Assembly (NCBI GenBank): GCA_018240295.1 | Contig: JAFEGB010000083.1 | Location: 1-33,669, forward strand | Direction of reading: 5' to 3' | Length of the DNA stretch: 33,669 nucleotides | Origin: Pseudomonadota bacterium | Lineage (GTDB): Bacteria > Pseudomonadota > Gammaproteobacteria > Competibacterales > Competibacteraceae | Part shown: positions 17,788 to 21,341 of the stretch, in pieces | Position numbering within the stretch: the stretch's first letter is position 1 | Layout: every line of letters starts with the position of its first letter | Made by a program: the position numbers and the translations under genes | The notes under the pieces: model-generated | The model's database searches: none | Told to the model about the DNA's origin: nothing | What the model saw: the letters and a program-made list of their open reading frames with translations, nothing else

Positions 17788-18219
17788 TCAGTCGATCGCG
17801 ACCGTGTCGAGCCAGGAGCGGATCGCCCACAGCGCTTCCTGCGACAGCGCGCCTTCGGGCTTCGCGAACTTCGGCATGTAGACGGCGCCGTTGCGCACGG
17901 CGCCGTTGCGCACGCGCTCCTGGAACCATTCGTCGCCGAGCGCGCCCTTTTCCAGCTTGCGCAGGTCGGGGGCGATGCCGCCCGAGATCGCGTCGATGCC
18001 ATGGCAGCGCGCGCAGTTCTGCGCGAACGCCGACTTGCCGATCTTGATCGCCAGTTCGTTGCCGCGGTACGGATTGCTCTCGCGCCAGTTCTCGTCGCCG
18101 AGCGGGTCCAGCCCGGTGGTGTCGACCGCCTGCGGGGTCACGTCGCCGTGGGCGTGGGCGGTGGCCGCCGTCAGCAGGGTCGCCAGCACCAGACCTGCAC
18201 GCATCGTGATCTTCATCAT
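17788..18219 (-). CDS. pedF: Periplasmic cytochrome c, PedF type (c-550)
   Basis: A 143-residue secreted monohaem cytochrome c. The signal peptide (about 1-24, VLATLLTAATAHA) is followed by NPYRGNELAIKIGKSAFAQN, then the haem site CARCH and a distal Met ligand in VYMPKFAKP. This layout is what I recall for cytochrome c-550 PedF, the electron acceptor of PQQ-dependent alcohol dehydrogenases such as PedE/ExaA. It would pass electrons from the quinoprotein to a terminal oxidase. ATG 18219 is favoured over a TTG six bases upstream because GGAGGAGAG sits at proper distance. A sigma-54 promoter with a paired upstream site precedes it. No alcohol dehydrogenase gene is in the window. Confidence 0.88.
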   Translation of the reverse strand: MMKITMRAGLVLATLLTAATAHAHGDVTPQAVDTTGLDPLGDENWRESNPYRGNELAIKIGKSAFAQNCARCHGIDAISGGIAPDLRKLEKGALGDEWFQERVRNGAVRNGAVYMPKFAKPEGALSQEALWAIRSWLDTVAID

Positions 18220-18277
18220 CGCCAAGCTCTCCTCCGGGTCTTATGGGATGAGGGGGTGTTCGAACGCCACGCAATTC

Positions 18278-18293
18278 AGCAATGAGCGTGCCA
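18278..18293 (-). promoter_or_regulatory. Sigma-54 promoter of pedF
   Basis: On the minus strand the sequence is TGGCACG-CTCA-TTGCT, an exact match to the core -24/-12 consensus (TGGCACG-N4-TTGCW). The expected transcription start is near 18268, giving a leader of about 50 bases. An enhancer-like inverted repeat lies ~120-145 bp further upstream, and the next gene, read divergently, encodes a sigma-54 activator. Confidence 0.85.
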
Positions 18294-18448: not shown

Positions 18449-18593
18449 GCTGTTCCGCACACCGGCAAGCATTTCGCAGGGCGGCAGAAAACGGGTTTAG
18501 AATCAGGTTTTACCGCGCGTGGCGTAATGCCGTGCCCGGCGATACGCCCACAACGACAAGGCCGTGCCCCCCGGCGCGGCGGAGGAGGAGAGC

Positions 18594-20654
<2,061 letters not shown>

Positions 20655-20810: not shown

Positions 20811-20826
20811 TGGCATGCACATTGCT
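20811..20826 (+). promoter_or_regulatory. Sigma-54 promoter in the activator-pqqA intergenic region
   Basis: TGGCATG-CACA-TTGCT matches the -24/-12 consensus (TGGCAYG-N4-TTGCW) and is preceded by the favoured C. Expected start is near 20837. No convincing gene lies immediately downstream; a strong intrinsic terminator follows at 20948-20980, so the product would be an RNA of about 145 nt. Confidence 0.75.
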
Positions 20827-20836
20827 GATACTCAAA

Positions 20837-20980
20837 CTGCGAGTTCTGACGCCGTGCCGGCACCGTCCCCCCTTTCCGGTGCCGGCCGACCTCCAGCGCC
20901 GGGGCTCGCACTCCTCCTCGCTTGACCCCCGCGATCCGGGACTCTTGGGGCGACCGAACGACACGGTCGCCCGTTTTTTT
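20837..20980 (+). ncRNA. Candidate sigma-54-dependent small RNA
   Basis: The predicted transcript has three parts. First, a perfect 10-bp stem, GCCGGCACCG (20856-20865) with CGGTGCCGGC (20877-20886), enclosing the pyrimidine loop TCCCCCCTTTC. Second, a probably open segment with CTCCTCCTCG (20911-20920), complementary to Shine-Dalgarno sequences. Third, an intrinsic terminator with seven T. Targets could include the nearby leaders of pqqA (CGAGGAG), pedF, the Cache gene (GGAGGAG) and the activator itself (GAGGAGGAG), but such pairing is generic. There is no ATG; a 23-codon GTG frame (20854-20925) has no ribosome-binding site and an unconvincing composition. Known parallels are GlmY (sigma-54 driven) and C-rich-loop small RNAs of proteobacteria. 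It is a prediction without expression data. Confidence 0.5.
20948..20980 (+). terminator. Strong intrinsic terminator
   Basis: GGGCGACCG (20948-20956), a 7-base loop, then CGGTCGCCC (20964-20972), followed by G and seven T (20974-20980). Nine perfect base pairs plus a U-tract in such GC-rich DNA is unlikely by chance. It lies 294 bp past the activator stop and 203 bp before the pqqA promoter; it fits the end of the small RNA candidate. Confidence 0.9.
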
Positions 20981-21047
20981 GCGCGTCTTCCCACGTTCGC
21001 CTCCCGGCACCGCCCGCAGGGCGCCGGCGTGCCTCGACTGACACACT

Positions 21048-21075
21048 CTGTCCCGCCGGCCGGCGCTTCTGTCCG
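21048..21075. promoter_or_regulatory. Possible activator half-sites upstream of pqqA
   Basis: CTGTCCCG (21048-21055) and CTGTCCG (21069-21075) start 21 bp apart, two helical turns, 108-135 bp upstream of the pqqA -24 element. They resemble the half-site CTGTCACGG found at pedF. The first is also part of GACA-CACTC-TGTC (21040-21052) and the second of GTCCG-CA-CGGAC (21071-21082). Suggestive only. Confidence 0.35.
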
Positions 21076-21182: not shown

Positions 21183-21198
21183 TGGCATGCGACGTGCT
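21183..21198 (+). promoter_or_regulatory. Sigma-54 promoter of the pqq operon
   Basis: TGGCATG-CGAC-GTGCT keeps the essential GG (-24) and GC (-12) at the right spacing and is preceded by C; only the first T of TTGC is changed. Expected transcription start is near 21208, about 59 bases before pqqA. Confidence 0.7.
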
Positions 21199-21266: not shown

Positions 21267-21341
21267 ATGCAGTGGAGCAAGCCCGAGTTCACCGAGATGC
21301 GTTTCGGCTTCGAAGTGACGATGTACATCGCCAATCGCTGA
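21267..21341 (+). CDS. pqqA: PQQ precursor peptide PqqA
   Basis: A 24-residue peptide, MQWSKPEFTEMRFGFEVTMY followed by IANR, the ribosomal substrate from which pyrroloquinoline quinone is built. Glu16 and Tyr20, the two residues that PqqE cross-links, are in the required E-x3-Y arrangement (FEVTMY). PqqD chaperones it to PqqE. The ATG has GAGGAG 6 bases upstream. It is first in the operon, behind a sigma-54 promoter, and is separated from pqqB by a strong hairpin, which usually lets pqqA be expressed in excess of the enzymes. Confidence 0.97.
   Translation: MQWSKPEFTEMRFGFEVTMYIANR

Follow-up and report, generated by a model that had tools for sequence, protein, structure and literature searches.

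A predicted sigma-54-dependent small RNA gene between an enhancer-binding activator gene and pqqA

The window (the whole 33,669-nt stretch of DNA analysed here, from a host genome of 4.06 Mb) holds, from left to right, pedF on the minus strand, a gene for a sigma-54 enhancer-binding activator (EBP), a 612-bp gap and pqqABCDE. The pedF product, cytochrome c-550 (17788..18225, minus strand), scores above the cut-off of NCBIfam TIGR04494; the EBP (18594..20654, plus strand) has GAF, AAA+ and Fis-type HTH domains according to Pfam, and pqqA (21267..21341, plus strand) and the pqqBCDE genes that follow it were recognized with Pfam and NCBIfam. The gap spans the distance from the EBP stop (20654) to pqqA and, as originally predicted, contains no convincing gene. 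Within it lies a predicted small RNA of about 144 nt (20837..20980, plus strand), the end of which is 203 bp from the pqqA sigma-54 box at 21183, exactly the spacing first proposed. Only three of 39 genomes from the family carry pqqB, and these are the window genome, G001 from the same genus (PqqB 87% identical to that of the window) and G007 from another genus (79%). The EBP gene adjoins the pqq locus in both relatives and in one Nevskia genome.

The predicted RNA gene is preceded by an exact-consensus -24/-12 sigma-54 promoter, TGGCATGCACATTGCT (20811..20826, plus strand), which sets the predicted +1 at 20837; the original prediction had claimed such a box and it is indeed present at these positions. 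The distance from the box to the RNA start is right for a sigma-54 promoter, and the box matches the consensus in both the window and G001. The spacing between the G001 counterpart, TGGCATCGAATCTGCT, and the beginning of the basal stem agrees with that of the window to within 1 nt, and promoter box and stem base stay in register in both species. Across the genome the box pattern is modestly enriched (22 matches vs 14 for a reversed-pattern control), a count that leaves some room for the view that the locus is ordinary sequence, with a box and hairpins that arose by chance in GC-rich DNA. Against this view, three of the 22 matches fall inside 3 kb at this locus, and the G001 homolog described below, with its conserved sequence and both-sided pair changes, already contradicts it; we regard it as extremely improbable. 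The box pattern is informative in this host because several exact matches elsewhere precede glnK-, glnA-, nifH- and other nitrogen-fixation-like genes, some of them classic sigma-54 genes (products identified by eye). Judging by these boxes, the host appears to fix nitrogen.

The RNA as a whole folds at -70 kcal/mol, compared with -53.1 +/- 3.3 for shuffled sequences (z = -5.1; 0 of 200 shuffles as good), and its G001 homolog folds with z = -3.3. Domain 1 (20838..20910, plus strand) consists of an outer stem (20838-20848 with 20900-20910), an inner stem and an apical 10-bp hairpin with a CU-rich loop. The apical hairpin is perfect, as first described, and its loop is 11 nt long; the 11-bp outer stem had been overlooked, and it encloses the hairpin and begins one base past the predicted +1. 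The apical loop, GUCCCCCCUUU (20866..20876, plus strand; AUCUCCCCCUUUC in G001), is unpaired in the ensemble, and its C-rich run and UUUC are kept between the two RNAs. A second unpaired element is the bulge GACCUCC (20889..20895, plus strand), in which GCCGACCUC is invariant in both species. Domain 1 is followed by a CU-rich linker, CUCCUCCUCGCUUGAC (20911..20926, plus strand; CCUCCUCCUUUGUA in G001), which is the main anti-Shine-Dalgarno-like stretch and is unpaired in the G001 RNA, whereas in the window RNA it is partly paired in the lowest-energy fold. Next comes a small hairpin, CCCG-CGAUC-CGGG (20927..20940, plus strand), where the RNA is most strongly conserved in sequence, with all but one loop base invariant; in the window RNA it belongs to a fold that lies some 0.6 kcal/mol higher than the minimum-energy one. 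Its exact signature was found in its own genome only, among 369 genomes drawn from the class (a draw that did not include G001). The RNA ends at an intrinsic terminator (20948..20980, plus strand), and here too the original description of a 9-bp stem with seven T holds: the stem occupies 20948-20972, eight of its nine pairs are G-C, and it is kept in G001 with two both-sided changes. Both RNAs end in U7.

Promoter, hairpin and terminator are all conserved in G001, the sole relative with the same gene order, so the prediction withstands the conservation check originally set for it. There the order EBP-RNA-pqqA is repeated, and the gap holds TGGCATCGAATCTGCT, a 142-nt RNA and a terminator with seven T; one copy of the RNA gene was found in each of the two genomes. 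When 50 kb were searched with a covariance model made from the window sequence alone, the G001 RNA was picked out at E = 1e-6, and gapped local alignment of the two RNAs gave a score of 77 (shuffles: mean 26, sd 4.3, maximum 53), while the flanks (upstream of the box, and from the terminator to the pqqA box) scored within the best of their own shuffles. Standard pairs fill 94.7% of the pair cells in a structural alignment, and both sides have changed in 12 of the 39 pairs as compared with 6.0 +/- 1.8 in shuffles, although the G001 row is model-fitted and therefore leans towards structure; domain 1 accounts for 10 of these changes, among its 26 pairs. The stems vary, and sequence conservation is concentrated in the CU-rich loop and linker, the GCCGACCUC bulge, CUUG and the CCCGCGAU(C)CGGGA hairpin. 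No ORF shared between the window RNA and the G001 RNA was found. It is very unlikely that the transcript encodes a small protein: each RNA does have short ORFs starting from GTG or ATG, but frame, start and Shine-Dalgarno site are all unshared, and the compensatory stem changes indicate RNA function. Judged by its sequence, then, the element is a free-standing structured RNA gene that ends in an intrinsic terminator and lacks a conserved ORF.

We also considered that the RNA could be a processing product from the 3′ end of the mRNA for the activator, that is, a terminator-bearing 3′ UTR that yields a stable RNA, perhaps by cleavage, with the sigma-54 box being incidental. The RNA begins 182 bp past the EBP stop, our scan shows no earlier plus-strand terminator, and CrcZ can also derive from a cbrB co-transcript (PMC6292655). 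What makes this scenario unlikely in our view is that G001 retains the -24/-12 box in register with the base of the stem amid an otherwise diverged spacer, and that the RNA fold starts at the predicted +1. We favor the possibility that the RNA gene is transcribed from its own promoter and is probably sigma-54-dependent.

Beyond the genus the RNA was not encountered. In G007 and in the Nevskia genome the EBP gene adjoins a sigma-54 pqqA promoter with no RNA between them, and the RNA is therefore known from this genus alone, having been either gained there or lost elsewhere. Covariance model R2, run with strict filters and hence limited sensitivity over 144 relatives and 369 genomes of the class, returned the window genome, G001 and one further match only, and no credible match came from searching with it the pqq locus of G007 and those of 80 other genomic regions carrying pqq. 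The further match, in G273, was dismissed as chance since it lies mostly inside an ORF, and matches of model R1 in other family genomes (G024, G011, G033 and others), which come without terminator or promoter, were set aside as noise. BLASTN of the window stretch gave short chance matches only against 59 relatives and nothing against plasmids. The original view that the small RNA is undescribed agrees with Rfam 15, in which there was no match at the gathering score and a few sub-threshold matches, far below gathering, at permissive thresholds. In the Nevskia assembly (L080, 3170-5800) a comparable EBP gene immediately precedes a pqqA promoter of the sigma-54 type, and sigma-54 control of pqq therefore appears to reach past the family.

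The RNA promoter belongs to a wider set of sigma-54 boxes. One precedes pqqA (21183..21198, plus strand) and is conserved in G001 and G007; another precedes pedF (18278..18293, minus strand) and has counterparts in both genomes, the one at G007 pedF being weaker. A third conserved box precedes a PQQ alcohol dehydrogenase gene located elsewhere in each of the three genomes; its sequence, TGGCATTGACCTTGCT, does not differ between the window genome and G001. The dehydrogenase promoter follows the pattern TGGCATTG....CTTGC in all three genomes; in the window genome it is on a contig separate from pqq. Since pqqA, pedF and the dehydrogenase gene all have a conserved sigma-54 box ahead of them, the proposed co-induction of the RNA with pqq and pedF is plausible and, as far as sequence goes, well founded. 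With regard to the activator, the RNA gene lies directly 3′ of the EBP gene (EBP stop at 20654, RNA box at 20811), a layout repeated in G001, and the EBP is likely the regulator of the RNA. We infer this from proximity and the shared promoter class, because upstream of the RNA promoter there is no clearly established activator site, just scattered GACA/TGTC half-sites. For pqqA, a candidate EBP binding site is the palindrome TGACACACTCTGTCC (21040..21054, no strand assigned); its 13-base core, GACACACTCTGTC, is identical in G001 and a shortened version is present in G007, and the element sits roughly 100-145 bp ahead of the sigma-54 box of pqqA.

As to what the RNA might do, its three CU-rich stretches suggest silencing by anti-Shine-Dalgarno pairing. 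The original prediction was that it tunes translation of pqq and pedF or of carbon-metabolism genes, and for pqq and pedF our analysis does not support this as worded. Pairing of the linker with the regulon's ribosome sites was ranked among those of 168-193 crudely called genes, with G007, which is without the RNA, as a control genome. The EBP site ranked 4 in the window genome and 2 in G001; the pedF site ranked 6 in the window genome and from 14th to 37th in G001, depending on the start chosen; the pqqA site ranked 31 and 3, and the dehydrogenase site 63 and 12, respectively, the last two being unremarkable in the window genome. The EBP of G007 ranked 4 of 185 with the linker, equal to the EBP of the window, and the EBP ranks first for the 16S anti-Shine-Dalgarno sequence in both the window genome and G001, so the target ranks, including those of pedF and the EBP, mostly mirror strong Shine-Dalgarno sequences. 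On this test, pairing with the EBP, pqqA, pedF or alcohol dehydrogenase ribosome sites did not prove specific, and the EBP site is the best candidate among them. The EBP Shine-Dalgarno sequence, GGAGGAGGAG (window 18575-18593), is unusually strong, with 9 nt complementary to the RNA linker, and those of G001 and G007 are similar, GAGGAGGA(G). Hfq is encoded in all three genomes.

Taken together, we consider it fairly probable that the locus holds a real, free-standing small RNA gene that is switched by sigma-54 and the EBP, made together with the alcohol-oxidation regulon, and acting in trans by anti-Shine-Dalgarno pairing. The box, the fold, the terminator, the conservation and the shared promoter type are the parts of this model that are read from sequence. 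Transcription, activation by the EBP, Hfq dependence and anti-Shine-Dalgarno action are the steps that we infer, and they might proceed as follows: (i) sigma-54 RNA polymerase, turned on by the neighbouring EBP during alcohol oxidation, would start at about 20837; (ii) transcription would halt at the terminator, at about 20980; (iii) production of the RNA would coincide with that of pqqA-E, pedF and the PQQ alcohol dehydrogenase; (iv) up to three CU-rich single-stranded stretches would be exposed, able to pair with Shine-Dalgarno sequences; and (v) the RNA, probably with Hfq, would reduce the translation of a group of mRNAs, to which that of the activator itself may plausibly belong. Action in trans seems most likely because the exposed CU-rich stretches can pair with Shine-Dalgarno sequences, and the RNA probably tunes translation of other genes while the cell burns alcohols. 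If transcribed, it would add a post-transcriptional layer to the PQQ/sigma-54 alcohol-oxidation regulon. A more elaborate scenario, which we offer tentatively and regard as doubtful, is that this is a genus-specific family exemplifying, as CrcZ and NrsZ do, a recurring layout with a sigma-54-dependent sRNA gene right behind the gene of its sigma-54 activator, and that the RNA covers the GGAGGAGGAG site of the EBP mRNA as negative feedback and retunes metabolism toward PQQ-dependent alcohol oxidation.

A search of the open-access literature yielded no small RNA that had been linked to PQQ synthesis or to alcohol oxidation under sigma-54 control, in agreement with what was originally supposed for PQQ. 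GlmY is alike in being a sigma-54-driven small RNA, but the window RNA has no Rfam match. GlmY works by protecting GlmZ. There is closer precedent for the arrangement itself: crcZ, in the cbrB-pcnB spacer, and nrsZ, in the ntrC-PA5126 spacer, are sigma-54-dependent sRNA genes directly beside the gene of their own activator (PMC8395346), and crcZ/Y are RpoN-dependent (PMC6292655). CrcZ/CrcY of Pseudomonas and Azotobacter share with the window RNA an EBP-driven sigma-54 promoter, a position directly downstream of the activator gene (cbrB for crcZ) and a link to carbon use (PMC8395346, PMC6292655). This shared position and promoter type raise the prospect that the window RNA is instead a protein decoy, titrating Hfq/Crc or CsrA/RsmA without pairing, like CrcZ or RsmZ. 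CrcZ, however, is about 407 nt long with several A-rich Hfq-sequestering motifs, whereas the window RNA, about 144 nt, is free of them and its open parts are CU-rich. Neither the window RNA nor the G001 RNA has a match to the A-rich CA motif (AANAANAA, 0 matches in both) or an ARN triplet run, and repeated GGA in hairpin loops is absent, GGA occurring once in the window RNA and twice in the G001 RNA, outside the conserved loops. Because these motifs are missing, decoy mechanisms are less likely, and we rate them as distinctly improbable.

NrsZ of Pseudomonas aeruginosa is also a sigma-54-dependent sRNA encoded in the spacer directly next to the gene of its activator, ntrC (PMC8395346), but it answers to NtrC and a nitrogen signal, is about 226 nt long and processed, and has no Rfam-level similarity to the window RNA. 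With regard to mode of action, the nearest likeness is the NfeR1/alpha-r14 family of rhizobia, which has variable stems and several CCUCCUCC-type anti-Shine-Dalgarno motifs in unpaired regions, motifs that redundantly silence the ntrBC regulator mRNA (PMC10746234). NfeR1 differs in being alphaproteobacterial, in having three hairpins with the same motif in each, and in being activated by LsrB rather than through sigma-54. On this comparison the window RNA would be a new family of a known kind of sRNA, its gene previously unlisted, and a third instance of a sigma-54-dependent sRNA gene that immediately follows the gene of its presumed activator, an arrangement open to systematic searching.
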